NCBI GenBank assembly: GCA_947491315.1
Contig: CANLII010000007.1
Span: forward strand, 1-64,000
Length of the DNA: 64,000 bases
Direction: 5' to 3'
Source of the DNA: Ignavibacteria bacterium
GTDB lineage: Bacteria > Bacteroidota > Ignavibacteria > Kapaibacteriales > UBA961
Below the pieces are notes generated by a model that saw nothing but the letters and a program-made list of their open reading frames with translations, did not search any database and was not told the origin of the DNA. The position numbers and the translations under genes were made by a program. Numbering within the stretch: the first letter of the stretch is position 1; each line of letters starts with the position of its first letter. Shown piece after piece: positions 1-39,724 of this stretch.

Positions 1-2409
1 GTTGACATTGAAGCCAAAGACACAGACTTCGGTAAATGCAAACCAAATGAGACCATCACCAAGTCCATCGATCTTGTGAATAAGAATAAGAATTCATCAG
101 CAGTAGTAAAGAATTTGACACTGAAAACAGGTGGTCAAGGATTTACGATCTTGAATGCGACATTCCCAATCACGATTCCTGCTGGCGGCAAAGTAACCTT
201 GCAGGTAAGCTTCACTAAAGATGTGAAGGGAGAATTCCGTGATATATTCTTGATGGATGATGGCTGCGTTATAGCAGAGAAAGGCACAGTAAAGGCAGTA
301 GTAGGTGAGCCAATTATTTTTGTGAGTGATATTGATTTTGGTACCATTAGAAAGGGTACGAAAGTTGCGCAACCACTTCTTGTAAAAAATGAAGGTGATG
401 CATCCTTAACAATTACCGGTTATACACTTCCGAAAGATCCTGCAGTATTTAAATTGGTCGGCTGGCCTGTTATCAATGCGCAGAATCCACTTGTATTACA
501 ACCGGGTGAAACCCGCCAATATGATGTTGAATTCACCGCAGTTGATCCAACTAGTTATACAGAAGCGATTGTATTCTCCAGTGACGCGCGCACTCGTGAC
601 AGCATTGGCGAACTCAAAGGCAGAGGAATTGAAGGCGGTCTTTTGGCTCGCGGTGCAGACTGGGGCAGAAAGCGCATTGGCAATGGTCCATATATTGATG
701 CCAAGGGAATTATCCTTGAGAATATCGGTAATGGTCCGATTCGCATTTTGTCATCCTCCTCACCAGATGCTGACTTTGCATTTGACAAGAATGTATTCAA
801 TGGTATGACCTTGCAACCGAATCAGGTTATTGAAGTAGAAGCTGCATTCAGCCCAACGGTGATAGGCAATGACAATTTGGTTGTGACCTTTGAAACAGAC
901 TTAGGAACCAGCGTTCCAACTGATCCCCCACTTCGTGGCGCAGGTATCATTGGTCAATTGCAGACAGAAGATTATGACTTTGATTCAACGATTATTCAAG
1001 GTGTAGTGAAGCCTGCGAATCGCAAGATGGTACGCGTGACTAATATAGGAACATTGGATGGCGCAGGCGCAGACTTCTCAGATGATGTAACGATTACAGA
1101 TATGATAGGTGTGACCCCCGGCGCAGTAGCAGAGTCCAATGCAAGTTATGGTACAGAAGGTTTCAAGTATGACAAAGCAGCTTTGTCACTTCCAATCACA
1201 TTGAAGAAAGGTGAATACAAGGAATTCCAAGCAGAGTTCCAGGCACAGAAGAAGGGTTCAGCAATGGCAGAAGTGCAGATTGAGAGCGATGCATCAAATC
1301 CAGCGATCATCACAAAGTGGACAGGATTTGGTATTGATCCATTCCGTCCTGATCCAAAGATTGATCCAAAGGGTGGCAGTGTCAATAATATTTGCGTAGG
1401 CTCCAGTGGAGATATCACAGCGACCATTAAGAATATCGGTAATGTGAAATTCCCTGTATTGAATATTTTCATCAATCCAACGACAGCGACAGAATTTGTG
1501 ATTGATGCAACTTCAAAGGCAGCCTTGCTTGCAAGCAATCTTGAGCTTGATGAGACCCGCAATGTGAAGATAGCATTCAGCCCTGTAGGTGCTTCTGGTT
1601 CACGTACTGTTAAAATGGGCATTGTAGGCCCAACAGTTGATGATACAATGTATGTTGATATCACCGGTGTTGCAGTAGCATATACGACAGAATTGGAAGT
1701 TATCGGTAAATCAAATATTGCGATTGGTTCCAAGACGAATGTAGGCATCAAGTTGAAGTCAGCCCCGAATGCTATTGCAGCGGTACAAAGCATGCCACTT
1801 ACAATTAGTTATGAGCCTCGCGTATTCTCACCAGTTCTCAATGAGGTAGTGTTAGCAGGCGCTTATGCGAATGCGAATTACCGCTTGGTGAATGTTCGTT
1901 TGATCAAAGAAGGCGAGATTGGCTTGACGGTAGAGGCAGTAGGCGCGACCACCTTGATCGATAAGGCAGGCGACATACTTACGATACCGATGAATGTGTA
2001 TTTACCGAATTTTGGTAAGAAGGACTTTGAGGTTGAAGCCAAGGGTGAAAATGTTGGTTGTTTGACAGTAACACCAGGCAAAGCACCGATGGTAGTAGAT
2101 CCGACCTGTGCATTTAACTATCGCGGCGTTGATCCATCGAATCAGTCATTTGGTTTGAAGGCATTGACCCCGAATCCGGTAGTAGATGGCAGAGCAAGTT
2201 TGGAATTCTCAGTTGGCTTTACCGTGAATACAGAGATAGCGATGTATTCGATGAAAGGCGAGCGTATAGCCACCTTGGCGAATGGCCAATTCCAGAAGGG
2301 GGTCTATAGCTCAGAGATACCGATGGAGATGATGCCATCAGGTTCCTATATCATCAAGATGGTAGCAGGACCATTCACAGCAGAGCAGCAGATTACGGTA
2401 TCTCGCTAA
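1..2409 (+). CDS. T9SS surface protein, 3' part only (copy A)
   Basis: The frame is open from base 1, so the gene starts outside the window; 802 residues are visible. The protein looks identical to residues 618-1419 of the next gene. It contains tandem immunoglobulin-like beta-sandwich segments of the ASH/choice-of-anchor-D kind (for example the DFGTI...G motif followed by NEGDASLTI), and ends in a T9SS type A sorting domain. That domain has an LTPNP start, a YSMKGERI strand and an SGSYIIKM strand. By family knowledge such proteins are exported by Sec, passed through the T9SS and fixed on or released from the cell surface. The GTG at 76 is not a real start, because the reading frame continues upstream to the edge. 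Ligand unknown. Confidence 0.85.
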   Translation, partial: VDIEAKDTDFGKCKPNETITKSIDLVNKNKNSSAVVKNLTLKTGGQGFTILNATFPITIPAGGKVTLQVSFTKDVKGEFRDIFLMDDGCVIAEKGTVKAVVGEPIIFVSDIDFGTIRKGTKVAQPLLVKNEGDASLTITGYTLPKDPAVFKLVGWPVINAQNPLVLQPGETRQYDVEFTAVDPTSYTEAIVFSSDARTRDSIGELKGRGIEGGLLARGADWGRKRIGNGPYIDAKGIILENIGNGPIRILSSSSPDADFAFDKNVFNGMTLQPNQVIEVEAAFSPTVIGNDNLVVTFETDLGTSVPTDPPLRGAGIIGQLQTEDYDFDSTIIQGVVKPANRKMVRVTNIGTLDGAGADFSDDVTITDMIGVTPGAVAESNASYGTEGFKYDKAALSLPITLKKGEYKEFQAEFQAQKKGSAMAEVQIESDASNPAIITKWTGFGIDPFRPDPKIDPKGGSVNNICVGSSGDITATIKNIGNVKFPVLNIFINPTTATEFVIDATSKAALLASNLELDETRNVKIAFSPVGASGSRTVKMGIVGPTVDDTMYVDITGVAVAYTTELEVIGKSNIAIGSKTNVGIKLKSAPNAIAAVQSMPLTISYEPRVFSPVLNEVVLAGAYANANYRLVNVRLIKEGEIGLTVEAVGATTLIDKAGDILTIPMNVYLPNFGKKDFEVEAKGENVGCLTVTPGKAPMVVDPTCAFNYRGVDPSNQSFGLKALTPNPVVDGRASLEFSVGFTVNTEIAMYSMKGERIATLANGQFQKGVYSSEIPMEMMPSGSYIIKMVAGPFTAEQQITVSR

Positions 2410-35187: not shown

Positions 35188-36116
35188 ATACCGTATTTGT
35201 CGCATATCTTATTCTGATTTCACTTGGCATAGTTTGGAGATTCATCCCTGGTGTTCCATCGCCAATAATCATGCGAAATGCAATCAGTTCATTGGTGATT
35301 CAAATCTTGCTTCCATTGCTCACAATATCAGTGATAGCAAAAGCCCCAATGACAGATGCAATTTGGCAGATTCCCTTTACGGCGATATTTGTGACCATTG
35401 GATGTCTTCTCACTGCATGGCTTGTATATGCGGGTTTGAGAAAAACCTTGCTGAACAATATGAGCGATGCAACCATGGGAAGTCTGATCATTGGATCTAC
35501 TTGGTGTAATGCGACATATTTGGGATTGCCCATCATCACCGGAATTTTTGGTGAGGAAATGTCATTCATTCCTGTGCTGTATGATGTATTGGCACTCACT
35601 CCATTACTATGGACTCTAGGCGTTTTCATTGCAGGATATTTTCGAGGAGATGAACAATCGCATGGTGAAAGAATGCGAGAATCTTGGCTGAAAATACTGC
35701 GACTACCGCCGATTTATGCAGTGATTATTGGTTTGACATTAAAATGTTCATCTGTGCAAATTCCTGATATACTTCTTCATGTTTCGGACATTGCCGGAAA
35801 GGCAGTGCCTCCTATCATGATGATTTCCGTGGGAATGGCATTGACATTGCCGAAATGGAAATCCTTGCTGATTCTCATTCCGGGAAGCATCATTCGACTA
35901 TTCATTGGTCCTGCTTTGGCTTCACTGTGCATAGTGTTTTTTGGTATGCACAATACTATTGGTCAAGCATTGATTATAGAATCGGGCATGCCAACGATGG
36001 TTTTGACATTAGCCTTGATAGACATGTATGAATTGGATGCTGAGATTTTATCGCATCTGATTGCTTTCACTACGATTAGTTCATTCATCACATTGCAGTT
36101 TCACTTGCTTTCATGA
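35184..36116 (+). CDS. AEC-family (auxin efflux carrier-like) permease
   Basis: 310 residues with about ten hydrophobic segments in two inverted halves, characteristic of the AEC family. The pattern STWCNATYLGLPIITGIFGEE is a typical signature, with another in the second half (IIESGMPTMVLTLALI). Family members move small organic acids such as malate or malonate. Translationally coupled to the upstream oxidoreductase and the downstream protease by 4-bp overlaps. A shared metabolite between oxidoreductase and carrier is possible, but inference. Confidence 0.8.
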   Translation: MNTVFVAYLILISLGIVWRFIPGVPSPIIMRNAISSLVIQILLPLLTISVIAKAPMTDAIWQIPFTAIFVTIGCLLTAWLVYAGLRKTLLNNMSDATMGSLIIGSTWCNATYLGLPIITGIFGEEMSFIPVLYDVLALTPLLWTLGVFIAGYFRGDEQSHGERMRESWLKILRLPPIYAVIIGLTLKCSSVQIPDILLHVSDIAGKAVPPIMMISVGMALTLPKWKSLLILIPGSIIRLFIGPALASLCIVFFGMHNTIGQALIIESGMPTMVLTLALIDMYELDAEILSHLIAFTTISSFITLQFHLLS

Positions 36117-37744
36117 AAAAAACACTTTTGATACTCATGGCATTCATCGGTTTGACCGCCGGTGCAATCGCATTTAAATTCTCTGATCAGGAATTGTTTC
36201 GGAGAATCACGAATGCAATGGACTTATTTGGTTCGGTATTCCGTGAGGTGACACTGCATTATGTTGACCCCGTGGATCCCATGAAATTCGTCAATGATGG
36301 TACCAAATCAATGCTTTCATCGCTCGATCCTTATTCAGAGATATTGGATGATAGCGGGGAAGATGATATGGAATTGCTATCGACAAATTCCTATACGGGA
36401 TTTGGCATGATCATCGGAATCATTGATGATATGCAAACTGTGATCGACATTTATCCAGGATATTCTGCGGAAAAGAATGGACTGAAACCGGGCGATAGAA
36501 TCTGTTATGTGGATACCACCTTTGTTCTCACAGACACAACCAATCTCATTAGATCATATAGTCGTGGCACCGTAGGTGGTAAGGTTGCCATGAAAATTCT
36601 TCGTTCCGGAAAATCCGATACCATTCATGCAGTGCTCACCAGAGAAATCATTCGCGTGAAATCACTTGGATTATCCGGGATGGTAAATGACAGTATCGGT
36701 TATATCAAAATTGATCGATTTTCCGCCAGCACAAAAGATGAAATGAAAAGAGCATTGGCACAATTCAGAAGGGAGTATCCAAAATTTGCCGGTCTCATGC
36801 TTGATTTGCGTGGGAATCCAGGCGGATTATTGGAGTCTGCAGTTGATGTATGCGATTTATTTGTGCCAATGAAATCCACAATTGTTATAACTAAAGGCAG
36901 AGATGCCGAGCAAGAGAGAACCTATCTTTCGCAGTTTCAACCGCAAGAACCGAATATCCCGCTCGCTGTATTGATCGATGGAGAAAGTGCAAGTGCAAGT
37001 GAAGTTGTTGCCGGAGCCATCCAGGATTTGGACCGCGGTGTCATACTTGGATCGCGTTCTTTCGGAAAAGGCTTGGTGCAAACAGTGATGTCGCTTCCAT
37101 CCAACAAATCATTGAAATTGACAACCGCTAGATATTATACACCTTCGGGAAGATGTATTCAGAAATTGCCTACTTATAATGAAGATGCCAAGATTGAAGG
37201 TAAAGAAGTGCAATTCAACACTGCAAATGGTCGTCCCGTGACCTCAAGACATGGAATCGATCCAGACACAATACTAAGCGAATATTCCAATTCTCAAATA
37301 CTCAATGTGCTTGAAGAAGAACAATTGCTCTTCCGATTTGTGAATGAATACTGTGCAAATATCGACACACTGTCCAAAGACTGGAAAGCAGGTGATAAAG
37401 AATTTAAGAAATTACAGGCATGGCTTCTCAAACAAGATGATTTCAGCATTCCTGAACCATATGCACTTTTGGAGAATTCTGATAATATTGCCCATAAAAA
37501 TGGATATTCAATTGTTTTTTCAAATTCTATGAAAAAGGTATTGAAAGGTGCAAAAAAGGACTTTTTGAAGGGATTATCTGTATTTCGTCCTGATATTTTG
37601 CGGAAATTGACCATACTCTTGCAAACCAGATATAGAACATCCAAGGAAATGACATCATTATTGTTCACTTATGACCAATTAATAGTAAATTCTACCATAA
37701 TCTTATCCGGTAAAACATATCAAAAATTATTATTGCCACAATGA
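36113..37744 (+). CDS. Carboxyl-terminal processing protease, S41 family
   Basis: 543 residues. An N-terminal hydrophobic segment targets the periplasm. A PDZ domain lies at about 85-165 (GFGMIIGIIDD...GLKPGDRICYVD). The S41 core contains the DLRGNPGG loop, the Ser in GESASASEVVAGA and the Lys in SFGKGLVQ. This protease class cleaves periplasmic proteins from their C-terminus. Residues about 400-543 are an extra helical C-terminal part common in Bacteroidota members. It is third in the coupled operon. Confidence 0.92.
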   Translation: MKKTLLILMAFIGLTAGAIAFKFSDQELFRRITNAMDLFGSVFREVTLHYVDPVDPMKFVNDGTKSMLSSLDPYSEILDDSGEDDMELLSTNSYTGFGMIIGIIDDMQTVIDIYPGYSAEKNGLKPGDRICYVDTTFVLTDTTNLIRSYSRGTVGGKVAMKILRSGKSDTIHAVLTREIIRVKSLGLSGMVNDSIGYIKIDRFSASTKDEMKRALAQFRREYPKFAGLMLDLRGNPGGLLESAVDVCDLFVPMKSTIVITKGRDAEQERTYLSQFQPQEPNIPLAVLIDGESASASEVVAGAIQDLDRGVILGSRSFGKGLVQTVMSLPSNKSLKLTTARYYTPSGRCIQKLPTYNEDAKIEGKEVQFNTANGRPVTSRHGIDPDTILSEYSNSQILNVLEEEQLLFRFVNEYCANIDTLSKDWKAGDKEFKKLQAWLLKQDDFSIPEPYALLENSDNIAHKNGYSIVFSNSMKKVLKGAKKDFLKGLSVFRPDILRKLTILLQTRYRTSKEMTSLLFTYDQLIVNSTIILSGKTYQKLLLPQ

Positions 37745-37840: not shown

Positions 37841-39724
37841 ATGAAAACACTCGCTTACTCTCTTCTTTTTATCTTCTTTATAGGGCAAAGCTCTGATTTG
37901 CGTGGACAATTCATTGCTGATAGATTTACCAATCGACCTCTTACCTTGATGAATGATGCAACTTCTGTTGGTTGGAATCCTGCCGTACTTGGCATGACCG
38001 GCAAAACAGATGTTGTTCTTGTTGTTCCTTATGACAGATCATGGCAAAACACACGATTGATTGGAGCATTTGCCTCTTCTCAAGGCGTTGGTTTGGGATA
38101 TACTTCTGTAAGACATGAAAGACTTCCCGACATATCATATGTACCATTTAGTTTTTATGGTGGTATCGGAACCAAGATTTCGGGATATAATGTGTGGGCA
38201 GGAGCATCTTTCAGATATTCAGAATTTGGCGGACGAACAATTCGCTATAGCGGATCTTTGATTTATAATCCATATAATAAATTATATCTCTCAGCTGGAA
38301 TGTCGAATCTGTATTCTGTGGATACAAAGGACATGGTATATCAAGCATCAGCAACATATTCGCTTCTCGACTGGCTGACCATGCATGGTAGATTGCAATA
38401 TTGTGCAGAAAAACCAATTTTTTGGGGTGAGAAATACTCCTCAGAATTTGGTATTGTCGCGGCAGTTAATAACAAAAGAATCATTTCCTCATTCTCTGTC
38501 AATCCTGTAGCAAGAGAAGCAAGATTCGGACTCGAAGTTGCATTTGATGTGTTCTCTATTGGTGTATTAAGCGAAGGCTCAACATTAAATACTTCCAGCG
38601 GCAGATTCAATGGTGGAAATATTCTCCTGAGAGTGAATCATGATTCAATATATGCCAATGAACATTATCGCTATCCCAAAGTTGAATGTTCTCTTCAGAA
38701 GTGTACAGATCAAGGTTGTGCAGGAAGACGATGTTATGATGCAATCTGTCCGGCATACCGTTGTATCAAAGTAGATTGTCAGGGAAGAACTTGCTCGCGT
38801 AGCATTTGCTCGGGACTACATTGTACACATGGTCATACATCTCGAACTGTGACTACAATCACTGAAAAGCAAATGGTTTGCAATCATTGTTCTCATCCAA
38901 CGCATCCAACACATACCACGAATACCACGCATGGCGTACATATTAATACTCATCCATCTCTCGGCGGATGTACTGTTTGCGGTTGCTCTAAAGAACAACA
39001 TGGCTCAGGATTTATACAGAATAATAGCGTAGGCGGAACTTCAGGTGACGGAAATTCAGGTGGTGGAAATTCAGGTGGTGGTGGCAATGAGAATGGTGGT
39101 AAAGGAGTTGGAAAAACCGGCATTGGTTCAGGTGAAAAGCCAGCTGAAAAGCCAACTGAAACACCAGCAAAAACACCATCAAAGCCTGATGCACAGCCAG
39201 TAAAAGAAATTGAAGATCCTGATGCTTGGGATACAGGTAATGTAGATGAAAAACCCGAGCCCGAAGTAGGTGAAGATGATGATCCATTCGAAGAAGTTGA
39301 AGAACCAATTTCAGAAAATATTCAGACGCCGGCTAATCCAGAAAAACCTCAGAATAATATTGACGGAAAAGGTGGTATTGGAAAGTCGTATAAACTTCGC
39401 AGAGTATTTTTCGATCATGATAAATGGGATATCAAACCTGAAAGCATTGAAGAATTGAACACACTCAAGTCATATCTCACCAAAAACTCTGATTTATGCG
39501 TTCGCTTGGATGCACATACGGACAACAATGGTACGGATCAATACAATAAAGAATTGTCAAGAAAAAGAGCACAATCCGTTGTTGATTATCTCATCGGAAA
39601 TGGCATAGATCCTGTTCGCTTATCCGCTCAAGGATTTGGCGAAGAACATCCCGTAACAACAAATGATACTCCCGAAGGCCGCGAAGAAAATCGCAGAGTG
39701 GAGTTTACGAAAATTGGATGCTGA
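37841..39724 (+). CDS. Outer-membrane protein: barrel-like domain, Cys-every-fifth-residue tract, His-rich segment and OmpA domain
   Basis: 627 residues. A signal peptide (about 1-22) is followed by a beta-strand-rich region (about 23-275) resembling outer-membrane barrels (MNDATSVGWNPAVLGM). Residues 283-328 contain ten cysteines spaced exactly five apart, with nothing else conserved between them. Next come CNHC (347-350), a run of about seven His in THP/THT contexts, and a CxxCxC (377-382). Residues about 390-510 are a Gly-rich then Pro/Glu/Asp-rich linker. The OmpA domain (about 516-627; LDAHTDNNG, SRKRAQSVVDYL, NRRVEF) should bind peptidoglycan. Overall: a peptidoglycan-anchored outer-membrane protein with a probable disulphide- or metal-bearing module. 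A TAGTTTG box lies 41 nt upstream. Confidence 0.8.
   Translation: MKTLAYSLLFIFFIGQSSDLRGQFIADRFTNRPLTLMNDATSVGWNPAVLGMTGKTDVVLVVPYDRSWQNTRLIGAFASSQGVGLGYTSVRHERLPDISYVPFSFYGGIGTKISGYNVWAGASFRYSEFGGRTIRYSGSLIYNPYNKLYLSAGMSNLYSVDTKDMVYQASATYSLLDWLTMHGRLQYCAEKPIFWGEKYSSEFGIVAAVNNKRIISSFSVNPVAREARFGLEVAFDVFSIGVLSEGSTLNTSSGRFNGGNILLRVNHDSIYANEHYRYPKVECSLQKCTDQGCAGRRCYDAICPAYRCIKVDCQGRTCSRSICSGLHCTHGHTSRTVTTITEKQMVCNHCSHPTHPTHTTNTTHGVHINTHPSLGGCTVCGCSKEQHGSGFIQNNSVGGTSGDGNSGGGNSGGGGNENGGKGVGKTGIGSGEKPAEKPTETPAKTPSKPDAQPVKEIEDPDAWDTGNVDEKPEPEVGEDDDPFEEVEEPISENIQTPANPEKPQNNIDGKGGIGKSYKLRRVFFDHDKWDIKPESIEELNTLKSYLTKNSDLCVRLDAHTDNNGTDQYNKELSRKRAQSVVDYLIGNGIDPVRLSAQGFGEEHPVTTNDTPEGREENRRVEFTKIGC
38687..38824 (+). 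repeat. Cysteine pentad repeat (C-x4 repeated, ten Cys)
   Basis: Codons for Cys recur every 15 bases from 38687 to 38824, giving nine consecutive C-x4 units plus a final Cys. The four intervening residues vary freely (SLQK, TDQG, AGRR, YDAI, PAYR, IKVD, QGRT, SRSI, SGLH), so selection seems to act on Cys spacing. Both TGT and TGC are used, which speaks against a simple DNA repeat. Confidence 0.97.

Follow-up and report, generated by a model that had tools for sequence, protein, structure and literature searches.

A cysteine ladder in the hinge of an OmpA-family protein from one Kapabacteria genus

Proteins of the OmpA family connect the outer membrane with the cell wall, and the linkers in them are commonly regarded as passive. 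A gene in the window, a 64,000-nucleotide stretch of DNA from an uncultured Kapabacteria species, raises the question of what such a linker could do with ten cysteines spaced exactly five residues apart. The cysteine ladder of this tract of only some 50 residues is strongly selected, and an unrelated-looking OmpA-family group of the same order carries poly-cysteine linkers. If these linkers hold metals or form stacked bridges, metal or redox state could influence how far apart membrane and wall lie, or how stiff the connection is.

An OmpA-family protein and its cysteine tract

The encoded protein comprises, in order, a signal peptide, an N-terminal domain, the cysteine tract, a Cys/His stretch, a low-complexity linker and an OmpA domain (Table 1). 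An S41 peptidase gene lies upstream and metG downstream, and the same order is found in relatives; the peptidase is a conserved neighbour whose functional link to the OmpA-family gene may be considered a possibility. Cysteine and histidine are concentrated in a 111-residue region from residue 283, which holds 15 Cys and 11 His; elsewhere in the open frame, 544 residues hold 4 Cys and 7 His.

Table 1. Positions of the features discussed, numbered in the window unless a locus is named
Feature	Position	Strand	Basis
Whole gene, 627 aa	37841..39724	+	ORF list and translation; orthologues at the same locus between S41 peptidase and metG
Signal peptide, about residues 1-22 (MKTLAYSLLFIFFIGQSSDLRG)	37841..37906	+	sequence reading, with the cleavage site inferred
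N-terminal domain, about residues 23-273 (NDATSVGWNPA)	37907..38659	+	homologues with 32-76% identity
(C-x4)9-C tract, residues 283-328 (CSLQKCTDQGCAGRRCYDAICPAYRCIKVDCQGRTCSRSICSGLHC)	38687..38824	+	translation, spacing count
Stretch rich in Cys and His, about residues 329-389; motifs CNHC and CTVCGC, some ten His	38825..39007	+	Cys/His count
Linker, Gly-rich then Pro/Glu/Asp-rich, about residues 390-520	39008..39400	+	read from sequence
OmpA C-terminal-like domain (HTDNNG...LSRKRAQSV motif)	39407..39694	+	PF00691
S41/CtpA-type C-terminal processing peptidase with PDZ domain	36113..37744	+	PF03572 E 7.6e-50; TIGR00225 over its cut-off
OmpA-family proteins and homologues of family f2 with Cys-rich linkers	L096 1459-2952; also L097-L102, L105, L107, L109, L111, L113, L115

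The assignment to the OmpA family, made in the earlier note, holds through the C-terminal domain, where PF00691 matches residues 523-618 (E 1e-22, 80.7 bits against a curated cut-off of 27.2). The motif listed for this domain corresponds to HTD ... LSxxRA, of which we take the Asp and Arg to be the peptidoglycan-contact residues, and the domain is probably bound to peptidoglycan. Because the protein carries an OmpA domain, the cysteine tract is placed, by inference, in the periplasm. The N-terminal domain, which returned no match in Pfam, NCBIfam or PDB sequences, is probably located in the outer membrane and is possibly a beta-barrel; a simple strand-alternation (amphipathic-strand) test was not significant for the window protein (p 0.53). 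Within the OmpA domain, C553 and C627 (39497-39499 and 39719-39721) occur together in 6/6 proteins with C553 and are both missing in the relatives G001 and G004, hinting at a disulphide between them, although the six proteins are close relatives, so the count carries little weight. Elsewhere in this genome, neither the ten-cysteine ladder nor the Cys/His stretch was seen in the frames that match the OmpA domain.

Translation bears out the position and numbering first given for the tract. It consists of the units CSLQK, CTDQG, CAGRR, CYDAI, CPAYR, CIKVD, CQGRT, CSRSI, CSGLH and a final C, so that ten cysteines (22% of the tract), encoded by eight TGT and two TGC codons as the mixed usage already reported implies, are separated by nine gaps of exactly five. 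When the 118 residues around it were shuffled 200,000 times and runs were scored at every spacing from 2 to 11, the best shuffle reached a run of 7 and none reached 10. The 36 intervening residues have an entropy of 3.65 bits per residue, whereas at the viral-contig loci that were examined every (C-x4)8+ reading has 2.9 bits or less, most of them resembling simple repeats or antisense or out-of-frame readings of pentapeptide-repeat genes. The high entropy between its cysteines shows that the tract is no artefact of repeated DNA.

The four residues between cysteines had been described as varying freely, which overlooks an alternation with a ten-residue period. Two residues after the cysteine, odd units carry L/T, G, A, G and G and even units carry D/V, D, K and R; in the window protein the third residues of the units read L, D, G, D, A, K, G, R, G. 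Adjacent units are less alike than units separated by one other. Permutation of the unit order gave p 0.008 for the window protein, 0.03 for the orthologue in G003 and 0.10 for a paralogue, with a joint p of 0.008 for four orthologues that are not independent of one another; the period was tested after the pattern had been seen, which makes these p-values optimistic. On the basis of these permutations, the true repeat is probably the decapeptide C-x-[G/A]-x-x-C-x-[charged]-x-x (permutation p about 0.01) rather than a pentapeptide.

Relatives of the tract and selection on its cysteines

Whether homologues keep the cysteine spacing, a point on which the earlier note had staked its reading, receives a divided answer. 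All ten cysteines stand at spacing five in four same-genus orthologues, namely those of G005, G002 and G006 and the window protein. The orthologue in G003, whose sequence is cut by a contig end (some same-genus orthologues are likewise read only in part), keeps the spacing apart from one +1 insertion and one Cys-to-Tyr replacement, and has extra Cys upstream. In G001 and G004 the C-x4 run is lost, and the same place is occupied by a dense, irregular, metallothionein-like segment with CC, CxC and CxxC. At least two of the relatives are metagenome assemblies, and several of the contigs are fragments.

Tandem paralogues are present at the same locus (L034 5116-6642, L038 2-1543 and L036 6760-9456), some with Cys-rich linkers; in others an inserted VWA-like region with a DCSGSM motif takes the place of such a linker. 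The G002 paralogue retains much of the tract with the same Cys-to-Tyr replacement as G003, and the G006 paralogue does not keep it.

A tract-profile search of 123 genomes of the order recovered six loci in five genomes, all of this genus, and within those 123 genomes the tract is known from this genus only. A further 395 genomes of the phylum were scanned for seven TGY codons at 15-base steps, as expected of long C-x4 runs; outside the genus, the matches listed were unrelated Cys-rich genes, simple repeats and pentapeptide repeats read in antisense. Among the genomes scanned, G207 and G243 (also G181 and G276) contain a (C-x-C-x-x)n repeat reading near or in open frames of about 180 aa (L065 1636-2166, L066 1516-2061).

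Codon comparison provides direct evidence of purifying selection on the tract cysteines, since these stay constant while their codons turn over silently and other residues are replaced. Between the window protein and G002, the ten cysteines are identical, 5/10 of their codons differ silently, and 20/36 of the other residues are identical; between G005 and G002, 7/10 cysteine codons are silently changed. Such differences amount to 3-7 of 10 across orthologue pairs, and 20-21 of the 36 non-cysteine residues are common to both clades of the four regular orthologues. This codon pattern nearly excludes the idea that a non-functional low-complexity linker drifted into a repeat. The restriction of the tract to one genus and the variability of linkers in the OmpA-type family here would suit such drift, which we nevertheless consider very improbable, given ten cysteines kept through silent turnover while their neighbours change, high entropy between them and no repeat at the DNA level.

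Downstream of the tract, a CxxCxC motif recurs in the orthologues with a complete segment and in one paralogue (CTVCGC, CPVCGC, CPYCKC, CRYCGC, CQHCTC, CMFCSC); the four regular orthologues have 9-13 His close by. Another family of the same order, f2, contains OmpA-family proteins and neighbouring homologues with extremely Cys-rich linkers. Many of these linkers end in poly-Cys runs (for example HCCHHCCCCCC and CCCCCCCCYCC) at the same position as the cysteine tract, and His-Cys segments also occur.

Possible metal thiolates or disulphides, and the redox context

The stacked disulphides, the row of metal sites and the crosslinking module proposed in the earlier note are all possible, with a weak and indirect lean to metal. 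In the reading tentatively preferred here, which falls short of an even chance, the tract and the Cys/His stretch would together form a metal-thiolate (Cys/His) hinge. An N-terminal domain in the outer membrane and an OmpA domain on peptidoglycan would be joined by this periplasmic hinge, beginning with the ladder of ten cysteines in decapeptide units and continuing into the His-rich stretch with its CxxCxC motif. Soft metal ions, for example Zn, Cu or Cd, would be held by reduced thiols together with nearby His and the CxxCxC ligands, and the metal-loaded segment might act as a stiffened spacer or as a metal buffer at the junction of outer membrane and wall. The evidence, all of it from sequence, establishes the tract's position, the selection on its cysteines, the ten-residue period and the restriction to one genus, whereas periplasmic location, metal binding and function are putative.

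The metal-thiolate hinge is favoured over a disulphide-ladder solenoid because the CxxCxC motif recurs, the neighbouring stretch is His-rich, the sister versions are metallothionein-like and the disulphide machinery is poor; it is further supported because f2 proteins carry poly-Cys or His-Cys segments at the same position. Several features argue against it: metal clusters need neither exact five-residue spacing nor a ten-residue period, the tract itself contains no CxxC or CxC, and in G003 the region, as far as it is sequenced, lacks His.

The redox context enters this choice directly. DsbB (PF02600) was not found in seven genomes of the genus, and VKOR (PF07884) was not found in this genome, a metagenome-assembled genome of 100% estimated completeness; Thioredoxin_4 gave matches below cut-off only. 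DSBA (PF01323) matches were obtained in G001, G003, G004 and G005 and not in this genome, and among the G001, G003 and G004 matches that were read are open, full-length proteins in which a signal peptide and a CGWC motif are present. The DsbA-like gene of this genome (L131, about 1410-1690, minus strand) has a TAG in the CGWC motif and an early end, and the match covers only the first 61 residues. Because the known disulphide catalysts appear weak or missing, the evidence leans to reduced thiols. Air or spontaneous oxidation without Dsb proteins, or unlisted enzymes, could possibly form disulphides all the same, which counts against the metal-thiolate hinge.

In the disulphide-ladder solenoid, a Cys(i)-Cys(i+5) disulphide would close each ten-residue unit into a tight coil, and about five such coils would make up a short rigid rod within the hinge; a structure of this kind has been proposed for the midge antifreeze protein. 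A closed, coil-like structure is favoured by the exact spacing, free of indels in the four orthologues, and by the decapeptide period, in which small residues or Gly alternate with charged ones at the second position after Cys; the even number of tract cysteines and the scarcity of cysteine in the window's other exported proteins point the same way. Against the solenoid stand the broken DsbA-like gene, the missing DsbB and VKOR, and the tolerance in G003 of an insertion and a Cys-to-Tyr change, the latter shared with a paralogue. AlphaFold gave it no fold, at pLDDT 41 for the tract (2 sequences) and 26 for the N-domain plus tract (3 sequences), though models with no usable fold are uninformative. 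We regard the solenoid as a possible alternative, somewhat less likely than the metal-thiolate hinge.

The chlamydial outer-membrane complex offers an analogue for a third arrangement, in which tract cysteines would link neighbouring molecules by disulphides into a protein lattice under the outer membrane. The many cysteines of a wall-anchored envelope protein and the recurrence of Cys-rich versions in the order are consistent with such crosslinking; exact spacing would be unnecessary for it and disulphide catalysts were not found, so we regard it as improbable.

Comparison with known systems

In searches of the tract and the whole protein against Pfam, and of the tract against PDB sequences, no named domain covered the tract, and its fold could be new. 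The earlier impression that no named domain has this pattern stands for these collections and needs qualifying in view of the midge antifreeze protein, which is non-homologous and has a cysteine every five residues. Two other candidates were rejected: the pentapeptide repeat (PF00805) shares the five-residue spacing, but the tract gave no Pfam match and lacks a central Leu/Phe or an A-D/N-L-x-x pattern, and a c-type cytochrome or multihaem reading finds no CxxCH in the 627-aa protein.

Wall-anchored members of the OmpA family (OmpA, OprF, Pal, PorE) share with this protein the C-terminal domain, its HTD...LSxxRA motif and a flexible linker before it, and the OprF linker contains Cys. In contrast to these proteins, the N-terminal domain here matches no named family.

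The closest precedent for the spacing is the insect midge antifreeze protein, which Basu et al. (2015, PNAS) reportedly described as having Cys every five residues in a ten-residue repeat. The midge (Chironomidae) repeat is a decapeptide solenoid of the formula xxCxGxYCxG. The protein holds eight disulphides in 8.2 kDa (PMC4838330) and adopts a beta-solenoid fold (PMC9418140). The tract resembles it in having Cys at i and i+5, a ten-residue unit and Gly two residues after alternate cysteines. It differs in that no homology was found, in being bacterial and part of a larger envelope protein, in lacking a Tyr row, a regular Tyr/Thr position or any other ice-binding face, and in that its disulphide-bonded coils are putative. 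A bolder proposal, which we hold to be unlikely as it stands, is that the tract is a new bacterial decapeptide cysteine solenoid, closed by disulphides or by metal, that arose within a single Kapabacteria genus, independently of the insect antifreeze solenoid, on which it would have converged, and that serves as a rigid rod spanning from outer membrane to wall. More broadly, hinges dense in Cys would then have evolved repeatedly in this order at one and the same position of OmpA-family proteins.

Metallothioneins and other Cys-rich metal-binding segments provide the second comparison. Six tract sequences gave no Pfam match to a metallothionein model at E 10, regular C-x4 spacing is not a metallothionein pattern, and the tract lies inside an envelope protein. 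The likeness lies in the cysteine content of the tract, in CxxCxC and His nearby, and in the irregular CC, CxC and CxxC arrangements of the sister orthologues.
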